From assembly GCA_014896295.1 (NCBI GenBank), contig JADBKR010000008.1, positions 558,001 to 622,000 of the forward strand: a stretch of 64,000 bases of DNA, in the 5' to 3' direction. The DNA comes from Limnochordaceae bacterium (GTDB lineage Bacteria; Bacillota; Limnochordia; Limnochordales; Geochordaceae). Positions 29,650 to 38,660 of this stretch are shown in pieces (position 1 is the first letter of the stretch; every line of letters starts with the position of its first letter). The notes beneath the pieces were generated by a model, which was given only the letters and a program-made list of their open reading frames with translations, searched no databases and was not told where the DNA came from. A program made the position numbers and the translations under genes.

Positions 29650-30573
29650 CTATCCTCCCAATCCCTCGCCCGCCTCCGCACGCGCCTCCACCTGCCCCAG
29701 CAACTCCACCAGCCGCACCAGCTCTTCCTCCCCGTAAAACTCGATCTCGATCCGGCCTTTGCGCCGCCCCTCCCGGATCACCACCCGGGTGCCCAGCGCG
29801 CGCTCCAGCGCCGCCGCCACCTCCCCCCACCGGGAACTTCCCGGGTCCCTCTTGCGAGCCTGCTCCCTCCCGCCCTTCTCCTCCCGCCCCTCCACCATCC
29901 GCCGCACCAGCTCCTCCGTTTCGCGCACGGAGAGCTGGCCCTCCGCAGCCTTCCTTGCGACCTGCACGCGCTCGGGCCCCGCCGGCAACCCAAGCAACGC
30001 TTTGCCGTGCCCCGCGCTCAGCGATCCTGCCTCGATCCACCCCTGGATCTCCGGCTCGAGCTCCAGGAGCCGCAAGGCGTTGGCCACCGTCGGCCGCTTC
30101 CGCCCCACCGCCTGGGCGACCGCCTCCTGGCTCATCCCGAACTCCTCGACCAGCCGCCGGTACGCCTCGGCCTCCTCGAGAGGGCTCAAGTCCTCGCGCT
30201 GGAGGTTTTCGACCAACGCCATCTGCAACATCTGGCGGTCGTCGACCGCCCGCACCACCGCCGGCACCGCCTCCAGGCCCGCCATCCGGGCGGCCCGCCA
30301 CCGCCGCTCCCCAATCACGATCTGGTAGCGGGCCCCATCGCCTTCGCGACCCGCCGGCCGCACCACGATGGGCTCCAGCACTCCGTGGGCGCGGATCGAC
30401 TCCGCCAGCTCCTGTAGGGATGCCTCGGAAAACTGCCGCCTCGGCTGGAAGGGGTTGGCTTCGACCTCCGCGACCCGGATCTCCCGCACTCCCTCCTCCG
30501 GGCCCCCTCCCACGCCGCTCACCACCTCAGGAATCAGCGCCCGCAGCCCTCTGCCGAGCGCCTGCCGGCTCAT
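29650..30573 (-). CDS. parB: chromosome partitioning protein ParB (Spo0J)
   Basis: 307 residues. N-terminal CTPase/ParB domain with NPFQPRRQFSEASLQELAESI and GERRWRAARMAG, central helix-turn-helix (FGMSQEAVAQAVGRKRPTVANALRLLEL), and a C-terminal dimerization domain (GRIEIEFYGEEELVRLVELL). It loads at parS, spreads as a CTP-gated clamp and recruits SMC. Overlaps parA by 47 bases. Confidence 0.96.
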   Translation of the reverse strand: MSRQALGRGLRALIPEVVSGVGGGPEEGVREIRVAEVEANPFQPRRQFSEASLQELAESIRAHGVLEPIVVRPAGREGDGARYQIVIGERRWRAARMAGLEAVPAVVRAVDDRQMLQMALVENLQREDLSPLEEAEAYRRLVEEFGMSQEAVAQAVGRKRPTVANALRLLELEPEIQGWIEAGSLSAGHGKALLGLPAGPERVQVARKAAEGQLSVRETEELVRRMVEGREEKGGREQARKRDPGSSRWGEVAAALERALGTRVVIREGRRKGRIEIEFYGEEELVRLVELLGQVEARAEAGEGLGG

Positions 30574-31333
30574 AGCGCATCACCTCCTCCGCCAGCTCTC
30601 GATACGCCTCCGCCCCTCGGCAGCCCGGGTCATACAGGGCGATCGGCTTTCCGTGGCTGGGCGCTTCGGTCAGGCGGACGTTACGGGGGATCACCGTCTC
30701 GAAGACCCGTACTTTCCCGGCGAAGAAGGACCGAACGTCCTCCACCACCTGCTGCGACAGATTGGTCCGAGCGTCGTACATGGTGAGCACCACCCCGCCC
30801 ACCACCAGGTCGGGGTTGAGGTGCTCCCTCACCATCTCGATGGTTCGCATCAGCTGGCTGAGGCCCTCGAGCGCGTAGAACTCGCACTGGATCGGCACCA
30901 GCGCCTCGTCGGCGGCCGCAAGCCCGTTGAGCGTCAACAGCCCCAGCGACGGGGGCGAGTCGACCAGCACGTAGTCGTACACCGAGCGTACCGGCTCCAG
31001 GGCCCGCTTCAACCGGAACTCCCGGGACAGGGCGCTCACCAGCTCGATCTCGGCTCCGGCCAGGTCTATGGTGGCCGGCGCCAGATCCAGTCCCGCTATC
31101 TCCGTTGCCCGGATCACGGCGGCCATCGGGCGCTCGTTCATGAGCACGTGGTATACGCACCCCTCGAGCTCCCGCTTGTTGACTCCCACGCCCGTGGTCG
31201 CGTTGCCCTGAGGATCCCCGTCCACCAGCAGGACCTTCCGCCCGGCGAGCGCCATGTATGCCGCCAGGTTGACGGCCGTGGTGCTCTTGCCCACCCCGCC
31301 CTTTTGATTCACGATGGCTATGACGCGCCCCAC
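30527..31333 (-). CDS. parA: chromosome partitioning ATPase ParA (Soj)
   Basis: 268 residues. Deviant Walker A KGGVGKSTTAVNLA with the signature lysine, Walker A' DYVLVDSPPSLG and the ParA-type DGDPQGNATTG. GTG at 31333 with GGGGAAGGGAG about eight bases ahead; overlaps the end of noc by 16 bases. In Bacillus this protein also controls DnaA. Confidence 0.96.
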   Translation of the reverse strand: MGRVIAIVNQKGGVGKSTTAVNLAAYMALAGRKVLLVDGDPQGNATTGVGVNKRELEGCVYHVLMNERPMAAVIRATEIAGLDLAPATIDLAGAEIELVSALSREFRLKRALEPVRSVYDYVLVDSPPSLGLLTLNGLAAADEALVPIQCEFYALEGLSQLMRTIEMVREHLNPDLVVGGVVLTMYDARTNLSQQVVEDVRSFFAGKVRVFETVIPRNVRLTEAPSHGKPIALYDPGCRGAEAYRELAEEVMRYEPAGARQRAAGADS

Positions 31334-32220
31334 CGCCGGTCTCCCTTCCCCCTCTCGCCCCGCTCGAGCACCCGCCGCCCCAGCTTCACCACGAACGTCC
31401 ACCCGTCGCCGTCCTCTTCCTCTGACAGGCTTGCCTCGATCCCCGCCTGACGAGCCTGTCGAACCACCTGCCGCAGCCCGTTGACGAAGATCCGCGCGTC
31501 CCCGTACGCCCCCCGCACCGTCCGGCGTTTCCGCTTACCCTGTACCGCCTGCTCCACGAGCCGCTCGCTCGCCTCCGCGCCCAGCCCCTCCTCCGCCATC
31601 CGTCGGGCCAGCTTCAGCTGCTGCTCCGGGTCCTGCACCCTTAGCAGGGCCCGGCTCTGCCTCTCCCCGAGCTTCTGCTCCCGGATGAACGCCTGCACCT
31701 CAGGCGGCAACTTCAGCAGGCGAATCTTGTTGGCCACGGCGGCCTGGCTGCACCCTAACACCCTGGCCATCTCTTCCTGCGTGAGCCCGAACCGCTCCAT
31801 GATCCGCCGGTAGCCGTCGGCCTCCTCCAGGAAGTGCAGCCCCGAGCGCTGCAAGTTCTCGATGAGGCCCCACTCCGCGGCCGTCCGGTCATCGCTCTCG
31901 CGCACGATGGCCGGCACCCGCTCCAGGCCCGCGAGCTGAGCGGCTCTCCACCGCCGCTCCCCGGCAATCAGCTCGTACCCTTGCTCCACCGGGCGCACCA
32001 CGATCGGCTGGATGAGCCCGTGCTCCCGGATGGACTGAGCGAGACCCTCCAGCTCCTCCTGGGGGATCCCCTGCCGCGCCTGGTACGGGCTCGGGTGGAT
32101 ACGTCCTACCTCGATCCACCGCACGTCTACGGCCGGAGCCTCATCGATCCCCGCCTGGCGCGCGACCCGGGGCCCCCCAGCCGTCCTTCCCCGAAGTAAT
32201 TCGCCAAGCCGCACGGCCAA
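31318..32220 (-). CDS. noc: nucleoid occlusion protein Noc (ParB paralogue)
   Basis: About 300 residues from TTG 32220. ParB/CTPase domain with PYQARQGIPQEELEGLAQSI and GERRWRAAQLAG, a helix-turn-helix (FGLTQEEMARVLGCSQAAVANKIRLLKL), and a C-terminal domain (ARIFVNGLRQVVRQARQAGI) that follows Bacillus Noc rather than ParB. TTG 32220 has AGGAGG five bases ahead and gives an N-terminus MAVRLGELLRGR, a possible amphipathic membrane-targeting helix as in Noc; an upstream ATG at 32307 would bury it behind an acidic leader. Confidence 0.88.
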   Translation of the reverse strand: MAVRLGELLRGRTAGGPRVARQAGIDEAPAVDVRWIEVGRIHPSPYQARQGIPQEELEGLAQSIREHGLIQPIVVRPVEQGYELIAGERRWRAAQLAGLERVPAIVRESDDRTAAEWGLIENLQRSGLHFLEEADGYRRIMERFGLTQEEMARVLGCSQAAVANKIRLLKLPPEVQAFIREQKLGERQSRALLRVQDPEQQLKLARRMAEEGLGAEASERLVEQAVQGKRKRRTVRGAYGDARIFVNGLRQVVRQARQAGIEASLSEEEDGDGWTFVVKLGRRVLERGERGKGDRRWGAS

Positions 32221-32311
32221 GCGCCCCTCCTCCCCATCGCCTTCCCCCGCGCCTAACACGGCTCCCTGGCGGCATTCTTCAACGCGCTCCTCGTTCCTCT
32301 CCCCCATCCCC

Positions 32312-35362: not shown

Positions 35363-35482
35363 CGCGTCGATCTACACGCTCTCTTTCCTTGGTGGCCCCA
35401 ACCTTTCCTCCACGGGCGCGACCCCGTAGTGACGCGCACCGGGAATGGAAAGGGTCTTCTTGCCCAGAAAGCGGCAGGTTCG

Positions 35483-35609: not shown

Positions 35610-35847
35610 TTCTCCACAGGCTGTGGACAACCTGTGGAACGCGTGCGCGAAAACGGGGCCCGCCACCTGGAGAACGGGAGGGTGCCGCTCGATGGCTCGC
35701 CTGCTTTCACGCTTTCCCCACCTTTTCGCCGGTCTTCGCGAGAAGCGGCTACCGCTCCCGGCTGCCTTCCGGCTGCACGCTTTCCCCTCCGGTTTCCCTG
35801 CCACGTGCCAAAAGGGCCTGTGGATAACCTGGGGATACTGTGGATAT
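35610..35847. other. origin of replication, left DnaA-box cluster
   Basis: At least five 9-base DnaA-box-like sites: TTCTCCACA (35610), TGTGGACAA (35622), TGTGGAACG (35633), a perfect TGTGGATAA (35819) and TGTGGATAT (35839). They lie in the roughly 570-base gene-free stretch between rpmH and the plus-strand gene at 35959, like the incAB cluster of Bacillus. Nothing else is recognizable in that gap apart from the rpmH promoter. Confidence 0.85.
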
Positions 35848-35958
35848 GACCGGCTCCGCCTCCCGGCTCCGACGGCTTTTCACGCACTTTTCGTCACCCC
35901 GGAAACCCTTCCGGCTGCTTGAAGAGGACGCCTATGGCCGTAGAGTCGACGCCTTCGC

Positions 35959-36819
35959 GTGGCGCTGCGATCTTTCGTCTTCGCCCGGATGGGCAGCGGG
36001 CGACGCGGCCGGGTCCGCCTGACGCCCTTCGGACCTGCAGCCCGGGAGCCGTCGGAGCCCGAAGCGGCGCCTCAGCTCCAGGTCCGCCTCGCCGTCTACT
36101 CCGCCTCCCACCTCCCCGCGGTGTATGACCTCTTCGCGGAGGATCCCGGGGATCTCCTGGCCGAGGCGTGCGACCGGGCGCTCACCCTGGCTCGCCAGCA
36201 GCACAGCCCTGTCCCATCCGCCGCGGTGGTGGCGGTCATAGAAAACCTCATCCACGCTCGCTTCCACATGGCGACCGTCTCCCTGGGAGCAGACGGCTCC
36301 GTCACCGTCTCCGACCAGGGCCCGGGCATCGAGGACAAGACACGGGCGCTACTGCCCGGCTTCACCACGGCCACCCCGGATCTACGCCGCTACATCCGCG
36401 GCGTCGGGTCCGGGCTGCCCGTGGCACAGCAACTGATGCAGGAGATCCGCGGCGAGTTGCGTATCGAGGACAACCTTGCCGGGGGCACCGTCGTGACGCT
36501 GGCACCTCCTTCCGGGGCGCTCAGCGCTCCGGGCGGATCGCCCGTCTTGCGGCCTGCCCCGAGGGCACAGACGCGCTCCCTCACTCCTCGCCAGCAGCGC
36601 CTCGTCTTGCTCCTGGCAGACGCGGGCGAGATGGGGCCGAGCGCCGTCTCCCAACACCTGGGCGTGAGCCTGACCACAGCGTTTCGGGAGCTGGTGGCGC
36701 TCGAGGGGTACGGACTCGTGGCCGCTCGCGCCTCGGGTAAGCGCGCGCTCACGGCCCGCGGGATCGAGATGGCCGAGTGCATCGCCGGAGAGGAGATGGG
36801 GGGCTCTCCGCGACCGTGA
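35959..36819 (+). CDS. GHKL-type ATPase fused to a winged-helix domain
   Basis: 286 residues; I do not know a named family for it. An N-terminal region (about 40-90) is followed by a histidine-kinase-like ATP-binding domain: N box VIENLIHARFH (94-104), G1 box DQGPGIED (119-126), a GFTTATPDLRRYIRGVGSGLP lid (134-154) and GGTVVTLAPP (175-184). No phosphoacceptor or dimerization histidine helix is seen. A C-terminal winged helix (about 205-275, QQRLVLLLADAGEMGPSAVS, TTAFRELVALEGYGLV) should bind DNA. It lies between the two origin clusters, 150 bases before dnaA. The start is uncertain: GTG 35959, or a different-frame ATG at 35934 with a better ribosome site. Confidence 0.75.
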   Translation: MALRSFVFARMGSGRRGRVRLTPFGPAAREPSEPEAAPQLQVRLAVYSASHLPAVYDLFAEDPGDLLAEACDRALTLARQQHSPVPSAAVVAVIENLIHARFHMATVSLGADGSVTVSDQGPGIEDKTRALLPGFTTATPDLRRYIRGVGSGLPVAQQLMQEIRGELRIEDNLAGGTVVTLAPPSGALSAPGGSPVLRPAPRAQTRSLTPRQQRLVLLLADAGEMGPSAVSQHLGVSLTTAFRELVALEGYGLVAARASGKRALTARGIEMAECIAGEEMGGSPRP

Positions 36820-36969
36820 CGATCGGCGCCGGGGTGCGCCGCAGCCGCTGCATATGGGATCAGCGGGGCCCGGCTTGGTCTTGGGGCTGGCCGCGCTGCT
36901 CGCAGGGAGCGCTCTTGCGCGGCGCTATCCTCCCGTCGAGCAAGCGCCCGAGGACCGGGAGGTCTTGTC

Positions 36970-38352
36970 ATGCAGTCATGGTCTGAACTATGGAACGCCA
37001 CGGTGTCGATGCTCCGGGAGCGGGAGGGCATGAGCCCGGGCTTCGACACCTGGTTACGCGCTTCCCGCCCTGTCGGACTCGACGGGGAGACGCTCGTGGT
37101 CGAGGTACCCGACGCTTTCACCAGGGATTGGGTGCGGGCGCGCTACGGGCCTGCCATGGAAGCCCTTCTTACCGGGCTCGCCGGGCACCCGTGCTCGGTG
37201 GTCCTCGTCGCGCCGGGCGAGCCCACCCCTTCGCGCGCCCGCCCTTTTCCGTCGTCGGATCCGCCCCAGCGGGGCGCGCCGCCTGCGCCGGACGTCGCCG
37301 CCGACGAGGACCCCTCTCATCCCACCGGTCCAGGGGGCCTCAATCCCCGCTACACGTTCGACACGTTCGTCGTCGGCGCGAGCAACCGCTTCGCCTACTC
37401 GGCGTGCCAGGGGGTCCTCAGCAACCCGGGCGGCCCGTACAACCCCCTTTTCCTGTACGGGGGCGTCGGCCTGGGAAAGACCCATCTGATGCAGGCGGTC
37501 GCCCACGAGTTCTTACGGCAGCGCTCGCACCTGCGCGTCCTTTACATCACCACGGAGACGTTCACCAACGACCTGGTCGACTCTCTCCAGCGGCGGAGCA
37601 TGCCCGAGTTTCGCAGCCGCTACCGCTCCCTGGACGTGCTGTTGCTGGACGACGTCCATTTCGCAGCGGGCAAGGAAAGCACGCAGGAGGAATTCTTCCA
37701 TACTTTCAACGCGCTGTATGAGGCCGGACGCCAGATCATCTTGTCGAGCGATCGGCCCCCGGTCGAGATCCCCAAGCTCGAGGAGCGCCTCCGTTCCCGC
37801 TTCGCCTGGGGCCTCCTGGCGGACATCCAACCCCCCGACTTCGAGACGCGCCTTGCCATCCTCCGGAAGCGGTGCGAGACCTCGGGTACCCCCGTCCCCG
37901 ACGAGGTGTTGCACTACATTGCCGAATCCATCCAGTCCAACATCCGGGTTCTCGAGGGGGCCTTGCGCAAGGTCGTCACCGCGGCGCGCCTGTCCGGCTC
38001 TCCTGCCACCCTCGACCTCGCGGCCGAGGTGCTCCGGGACCTCACCGAGTCCCAGCGACGCCCCCTCACCATCGATCGCATCCAGACCGTCGTTGCCCAG
38101 CACTTCGGCATCGAACCCGAGGAACTCAGGGGCAAGAGCCGCACCCGAGACGTGGCCTTCGCTCGCCAGATAGCCATGTTTCTCGCACGGGAGCTGACCC
38201 AGGCTTCGTTGCCCCACATCGGCGATCAATTCGGAGGGCGAGACCACTCCACGGTCCTCCATGCCATCGAAAGGGTACAAGCCGCCATGCGAGCCGATGG
38301 CGCCGTCAACGACCTGATCCGGCACCTGCGCCAGCGACTCAGCCGGACGTGA
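36970..38352 (+). CDS. dnaA: chromosomal replication initiator DnaA
   Basis: 460 residues. N-terminal DnaB-interaction domain, a Pro-rich variable domain II, AAA+ domain with Walker A GGVGLGKTHLM and Walker B LLLDDVHF, and the C-terminal DNA-binding signature GRDHSTVLHAIERV. Binds the DnaA boxes on both sides of the gene. Confidence 0.97.
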   Translation: MQSWSELWNATVSMLREREGMSPGFDTWLRASRPVGLDGETLVVEVPDAFTRDWVRARYGPAMEALLTGLAGHPCSVVLVAPGEPTPSRARPFPSSDPPQRGAPPAPDVAADEDPSHPTGPGGLNPRYTFDTFVVGASNRFAYSACQGVLSNPGGPYNPLFLYGGVGLGKTHLMQAVAHEFLRQRSHLRVLYITTETFTNDLVDSLQRRSMPEFRSRYRSLDVLLLDDVHFAAGKESTQEEFFHTFNALYEAGRQIILSSDRPPVEIPKLEERLRSRFAWGLLADIQPPDFETRLAILRKRCETSGTPVPDEVLHYIAESIQSNIRVLEGALRKVVTAARLSGSPATLDLAAEVLRDLTESQRRPLTIDRIQTVVAQHFGIEPEELRGKSRTRDVAFARQIAMFLARELTQASLPHIGDQFGGRDHSTVLHAIERVQAAMRADGAVNDLIRHLRQRLSRT

Positions 38353-38660
38353 ACCCTGTCGAAAAGGCCCTGAAAACCTGTGAAAACCGGTGGAAAGACC
38401 GTGGACAAGTCGGGCGTTTCCCCACAGCCCGCTGTTCGGGGACAGGAGGTCAGGCTGTTCGGTCGCCGGTTATCCCGATTGTGTCTCCCGTTCGTCCACA
38501 GCTTCGAACCGAGGGGGATTTTGACGGTCATGCGTCTGGCAGCCTTGTCCACATATCCACGGCTTCTACTCCCTCGACTGCATATCGTTAGTTCCTCCCT
38601 GGAGTAGCAGGAGGAGATGGCCTCGATCCAAGTCCAGGAAAAGGAGGACGCTACCCGCCC
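38353..38660. other. origin of replication, dnaA-dnaN intergenic cluster
   Basis: 308 gene-free bases with DnaA-box-like sites CGTGGACAA (38400), TTCCCCACA (38418), TCGTCCACA (38492), TTGTCCACA (38545) and overlapping ATATCCACG (38553). Just after the dnaA stop, GTGGAAAACC-like units recur at about 10-12-base steps (38358, 38370, 38380, 38390, 38401). This is the likely unwinding side of a bipartite origin. Confidence 0.85.

Follow-up and report, generated by a model that had tools for sequence, protein, structure and literature searches.

A gene encoding a GHKL ATPase-winged-helix protein lies directly 5' of dnaA, and on the same strand, in 75 of the 76 loci where a homologue could be followed to dnaA. 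This placement makes it a strong candidate for a regulator of chromosome replication that has so far been overlooked. The gene was identified in a stretch of 64,000 nucleotides from a Limnochordaceae bacterium (here, the window), and the family to which it belongs, as delimited by protein similarity, is spread over at least three bacterial phyla. Control of DnaA is known in detail for just a few model bacteria. Many bacteria, as one paper notes, are without identified homologues of helicase loaders or of DnaA regulators (PMC5720831). Here, one gene is fixed at the locus where a DnaA regulator would be expected, unnamed by family models, and it is present in the cultured gut genera Collinsella, Olsenella, Raoultibacter, and Adlercreutzia.

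The gene and the replication origin that surrounds it

The GC skew of the window has its minimum at about 36 to 38 kb, indicating that the locus is the replication origin. The features of the region are listed in Table 1. An earlier first-pass annotation of the same DNA had described a plus-strand gene of about 286 codons between DnaA boxes and dnaA, extending from 35934 to 36819 and ending 150 bases before dnaA in the same direction. The gene, its stop codon, and its spacing and orientation relative to dnaA were borne out; the start was not, since the ATG at 35934 is out of frame with the gene in the window by one base. In-frame starts are available at GTG 35959 or ATG 35989. In a sister genome (G072), which belongs to the same species and is 97.1% identical over 4.8 kb, one base near window position 36005 is absent, and the equivalent ATG opens the frame of the gene. 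The extra base in the window reflects either a sequence error or a frameshift that arose recently in the unstructured N-terminal tail; in both cases the shift is confined to that tail and leaves the GHKL and winged-helix domains unaffected. Single-base insertions relative to this 97%-identical genome were observed at 36000 to 36010 and at 35391, and these could be polymorphisms or assembly errors. For the intact part of the gene, pN/pS against the sister genome was 0.13 (16 differences only; dnaA, 0.04), suggesting, within these small counts, that the gene is under purifying selection. Given this ratio and the conservation of the protein across phyla, the open reading frame is not a chance frame.

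Table 1. Coordinates of the gene, its encoded domains and motifs, and neighboring origin features in the window
Feature	Position	Strand	Details
DnaA-box-like cluster, 5' of gene	35610..35847		TTCTCCACA at 35610; TGTGGACAA and TGTGGAA near 35622-35638; TGTGGATAA at 35819; TGTGGATAT at 35839
ATG with good Shine-Dalgarno sequence	35934..35936	+	In frame in sister genome; out of frame in window through one extra base near 36005
Gene for GHKL ATPase-winged-helix protein	35959..36819	+	Stop included; 286 codons; GTG start in window
GHKL ATP-binding domain with N-terminal beta-hairpin, aa 40-182	36076..36504	+	PF02518; AlphaFold2 models; fold matches
N box AVIENLIHA, aa 92-100	36232..36258	+	Asn96 and His99 in 48/48 members; Glu at -4 (44/48 members) is Ala here
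G1 box DQGPGI, aa 119-124	36313..36330	+	D119, G121, G123, and I124 in 48/48
G2 box GVGSGL, aa 148-153	36400..36417	+	G148, G150, and G152 in 48/48
C-terminal winged helix, MarR/IclR/TrmB type, aa 207-280	36577..36798	+	Profile matches; AlphaFold2 model; fold matches
Spacer between gene and dnaA	36820..36969		150 bases; no strict DnaA box
dnaA	36970..38352	+	ATG at 36970; PF00308, PF08299, PF11638
dnaA-dnaN gap	38353..38660		DnaA boxes and TAGTAGTA words that resemble DnaA-trios are enriched here in relatives

Two groups of DnaA-box-like sequences precede the gene (35610 to 35639 and 35819 to 35847), with one exact TTATCCACA among them. Across gene-bearing loci, DnaA boxes occur at 3.3 per kb before the gene and 2.2 per kb in the dnaA-dnaN gap, compared with 0.3 per kb in the gene and the gene-dnaA gap and 0.05 to 0.13 per kb in the coding sequences of dnaA and gyrB. 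The TAGTAGTA-like words of the dnaA-dnaN gap are presumably DnaA-trios. Word enrichment over the three intergenic regions of gene-bearing origins recovered DnaA boxes, the trio-like words, and a noncanonical word, TTTTCAACA, and yielded no gene-specific operator motif. The noncanonical word is missing from 20 gene-less controls and also from most gene-bearing Bacillota, and it is interspersed among DnaA boxes; it is therefore not claimed as the binding site of the family protein. In several Coriobacteriales origins (L081, L085, L086, L106, and others), TTTTCAACA is repeated among TTTTCCACA sites both ahead of the gene and between it and dnaA, and it is possibly a lineage variant of the DnaA box.

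Two further features of the window were noted. A short plus-strand frame (36853 to 37000) in the spacer overlaps the start of dnaA, encodes a signal-peptide-like hydrophobic stretch (MGSAGPGLVLGLAALLAGSALA), and is shared with the sister genome. On the minus strand near the origin (29650 to 32307), a ParA-like gene lies between two ParB-like genes, an arrangement resembling parAB with a Noc-like paralogue. No Rfam match was found within the window.

ATP site and winged helix of the encoded protein

The protein was predicted at first pass to have a histidine-kinase-type ATP site, no kinase dimerization helix, and a C-terminal winged helix, and all three predictions hold. The HATPase_c family (PF02518) matches residues 94 to 184 above the Pfam cutoff (E = 1.7e-9), and it also matches every one of the 48 diverse members aligned for comparison (alignment A2). 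The N, G1, and G2 boxes are intact (Table 1), and H99, K127, G165, N172, and G176 are likewise invariant in 48/48 members. A domain profile search found no match to HisKA or another dimerization family in the window protein or in the 48 members, and the two-helix DHp is absent from the AlphaFold2 model of the window protein. Several winged-helix families match residues 211 to 272; HTH_IclR falls slightly under its cutoff in the window protein (E = 2e-4) and matches 33 of the 48 relatives (best E = 6e-9).

The AlphaFold2 model (pLDDT of 86.8 for the whole protein; 91.2 for the GHKL domain modeled alone) comprises the GHKL domain and a MarR-like winged helix. Among solved structures, DIP2311 of Corynebacterium (3LMM; Z of 15.6, rmsd of 3.5, 150 residues) is closest in fold to the GHKL domain, followed by histidine-kinase CA domains and SpoIIAB (Z of about 11). 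The winged helix matches MarR-family structures at Z of 12 to 13 over 75 to 88 residues, several of them solved with operator DNA, and two plasmid centromere binders, AspA/pNOB8 and TubR, are also among its matches. PADLOC matches of the window protein correspond only to the winged helix of Csa3/CARF-type proteins, and a defense role was rejected. In several Coriobacteriales (L100, L102, and L107), the interdomain linker is lengthened to 100 residues or more, with Q, P, Y, and G abundant (YGQP-like), which hints at a low-complexity or condensate-forming segment.

The N box has the SpoIIAB-like ExxxN form in 44 of the 48 members; its Glu is replaced by Ala in the window protein and its family relative L002 and by Gln in two Eggerthellaceae. 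Since this Glu is not universal while the ATP-site residues are invariant, the motifs predict that ATP binding is to be expected throughout the family and that some lineages may do without hydrolysis. The same residues bear on whether the protein could be a Ser/Thr kinase like SpoIIAB or CapK, whose GHKL domain would phosphorylate a partner protein, possibly DnaA or a component of the replisome, with the winged helix merely positioning it at the origin or sensing DNA. The N box (Glu at -4, Asn, His) is closer to that of SpoIIAB than to that of histidine kinases, HisKA is missing, SpoIIAB structures align at the Z given above, and CapK, a kinase of HTH-STAS-GHKL architecture activated by single-stranded DNA, regulates its neighboring operon (PMC13373217). 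However, no STAS-type substrate gene is adjacent, the neighbors being rpmH/rnpA and dnaA, and the substitution of the N-box Glu by Ala in the window's own family and by Gln in two other members means that catalysis cannot be required everywhere. We regard a kinase as unlikely.

The fold matches also raise the possibility of a structural factor for the origin or for segregation, either a dimeric clamp worked by ATP or a centromere-like binder, which would organize origin DNA and have no role as a transcription regulator. Dimerizing GHKL ATPases such as GyrB and MutL work as ATP-operated clamps, which would fit such a role, as would the matches to AspA/pNOB8 and TubR and the placement of the gene at the DnaA-box region. 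We nonetheless consider it quite improbable: ordinary MarR repressors match at least as well as the centromere binders do, a ParA/ParB segregation system already adjoins in the window (30.5 to 32.3 kb) and parA is found near many homologues, and word enrichment of the intergenic regions revealed no repeat array specific to the gene.

Family distribution and linkage to dnaA

The family was built from a first search for relatives and then from a scan of the resulting alignment (A1) against one genome per species. The scan yielded 122 relatives; from these, 80 loci were retained, chosen by protein similarity alone. The relatives come from Bacillota MAGs, Coriobacteriia (Collinsella, Olsenella, Raoultibacter, Adlercreutzia, and Parvibacter), Hakubella, Thermoleophilia MAGs, and ANGP1/'Armatimonadota' MAGs. 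Within the class of the window, the gene was found in 18 of 73 genomes, covering all members of three families; within its phylum, Bacillota, it was found in 40 of 398 sampled genomes, two short SpoIIAB-like hits being set aside. In an evenly drawn sample of Actinomycetota, up to about 157 of 396 genomes (roughly 40%) carry it, as do 38 of 43 genomes in the phylum of L036 (ANGP1/'Armatimonadota' MAGs). Each of 15 wholly searched genomes holds exactly one strong copy (240 to 342 bits), with background GHKL proteins next at <47 bits. Weak hits to SpoIIAB-length proteins without a winged helix (L018 to L020, G333, and G413) were left out of the counts; dnaA is not near the one in G333 (L220). Given a family that spans at least three phyla, the label of lineage specific, attached to the gene at first pass, fails.

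Linkage to dnaA was nearly complete. Seventy-six of the 80 loci reach dnaA, the contig ending first in the other 4, and the single exception to the co-directional arrangement (L096) is divergent from dnaA. In the 75 co-directional loci, the gene-dnaA gap has a median of 48 bp (quartiles, 16 and 89; range, 3 to 589) and is no longer than 20 bp in 22, usually short enough for a single gene-dnaA transcript. Some coriobacterial loci have gaps of 200 to 600 bp, and together with the divergent locus these indicate that one transcript for the gene and dnaA is not obligatory. More divergent members were tested further, mostly the lowest-scoring ones among the matches listed in whole-genome searches, and all 39 lie between rpmH/rnpA and dnaA; for 4 of them, the gene is the final one on a contig whose end agrees with numbering from dnaA. 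In the window's phylum, 19 of 19 drawn members occupy the same slot. Thus, homologues scattered away from dnaA, which the first-pass annotation had named as evidence against its proposal, did not emerge. Rearranged origins were observed in Eggerthellaceae and Parvibacter (L082, L088, L091, L093, L108, and L096).

We weighed whether the gene is instead a passenger, an ordinary ATP-binding regulator of another target that stays beside dnaA because it is inherited vertically and the origin region is conserved in general. The dnaA region is indeed conserved in many bacteria, and the maximum-likelihood family tree mostly clusters by phylum (5 changes of phylum label versus a shuffled mean of 25), consistent with an old, mainly vertical descent with some losses or transfers. 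Against a passenger, the linkage persists at about 30 to 45% protein identity between phyla, and it survives inversions that break synteny with dnaN: in Eggerthellaceae-type loci (L082, L088, L091, L093, and L108), the gene-dnaA pair is intact though inverted relative to dnaN-recF-gyrB. Moreover, no strong copy away from dnaA was found in the genomes examined. On balance, a passenger appears improbable.

In the 20 gene-less relatives that were checked, about 620 bp with DnaA boxes separate rpmH from dnaA. The gene is thus a cassette, with the upstream DnaA boxes on one side and dnaA on the other. Many relatives whose dnaA loci are normal do without it, so it is not universally required; given its absence from many close relatives, the gene would either modulate initiation rather than enable it or be replaced there by something else. 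A general sporulation role, part of the first-pass proposal, was discarded because Spo0A is present in 72 of the 73 class genomes with or without the gene and went undetected in many gene-bearing genomes outside the class (14 of the 24 tested). Replacement of YabA was also rejected as an explanation, since YabA scored above its cutoff in none of the 73 class genomes, leaving no contrast to be drawn.

Proposed role and comparison with known systems

Control of dnaA or of initiation by the family protein is plausible from its architecture and position, although conserved position alone can mean coregulation without a role in initiation. Also speaking against such a role are the negative search for an operator motif, the long gaps and the divergent locus, the many relatives that lack the gene, and the tree distances, whose partial correlations gave no sign of coevolution with DnaA beyond shared ancestry (0.38 for DnaA versus 0.37 for DnaN). 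We propose, with confidence evenly poised, that the product is a regulator devoted to the dnaA locus whose DNA binding is gated by ATP and which acts on dnaA expression and/or origin firing. The winged helix, probably as a dimer, would bind the intergenic region 5' of its own gene, which would serve both as promoter of the gene-dnaA unit and as the upstream part of oriC. ATP or ADP in the GHKL domain would alter the dimer state or the domain arrangement and hence DNA binding, and dnaA expression and/or orisome assembly would in this way be tied to the nucleotide state or to the signal of a partner. A more far-reaching interpretation is more tentative and falls somewhat short of even confidence: an ancient, undescribed initiation-control protein, an ATP-switched origin binder encoded within a bipartite origin in Bacillota, Actinomycetota (notably Coriobacteriia), and ANGP1, could act with or on DnaA and set initiation in lineages that have no known regulator of DnaA.

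The protein is covered by neither a Pfam nor an NCBIfam model, no profile places it in a known family of unrelated function, and no description of the gene was found in the open-access literature. The first-pass annotation had recognized the two folds but not their combination. The two-fold architecture stands, but it is not unheard of: DIP2311-like proteins (COG2865; SLFN_AlbA_2-HATPase_c_4-winged helix; PDB 3LMM) share the GHKL fold subtype (Z of 15.6) followed by a winged helix. In the window's relatives, the HATPase_c_4 proteins consist of AlbA_2, a degenerate GHKL domain, and a winged helix, and those examined read NPGG in place of DxGxG, whereas the dnaA-linked family keeps the canonical DxGxG G1 box. 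Only about 40 residues precede the GHKL domain in the window protein, and SLFN_AlbA_2 matched neither it (E ≤ 1) nor the 48 members (25 families listed). HATPase_c_4 (PF13749) gave no score at this gene in the window genome and other gene-bearing genomes, compared with 60 to 78 bits for true members, and profile-profile comparison with HATPase_c_4-type proteins aligned through the winged helix only. Unlike those regulators, the window family is tied to dnaA.

With sensor histidine kinases, the family shares the CA-type ATP site (N, G1, and G2 boxes), but HisKA/DHp with its phosphorylatable His is missing. With the anti-sigma kinases SpoIIAB and RsbW, it shares a GHKL domain without HisKA, the ExxxN...H N box, and the fold (Z of about 11); however, it adds an N-terminal hairpin and a C-terminal winged helix, scores 22 bits against the SpoIIAB equivalog cutoff of 135 (window protein), and is flanked by rpmH/rnpA and dnaA rather than by an anti-anti-sigma partner gene. 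With transcription regulators of the MarR/IclR type, it shares a winged helix of that fold (MarR, Z of 12 to 13; HTH_IclR, 33/48).

The likeness to CapK/CapS is an analogy, not membership. There, too, GHKL and HTH modules are encoded just 5' of the operon under their control, as here relative to dnaA; however, repression through DNA binding falls to a separate STAS-wHTH protein, and the targets are immune operons (PMC13373217), not dnaA. DciA (DUF721) is a helicase operator encoded between recF and gyrB (PMC5109545; Rv0004 in PMC5720831). It acts in replication, and its position within the dnaA-dnaN-recF-gyrB cluster is likewise conserved, but it belongs to a different protein family.
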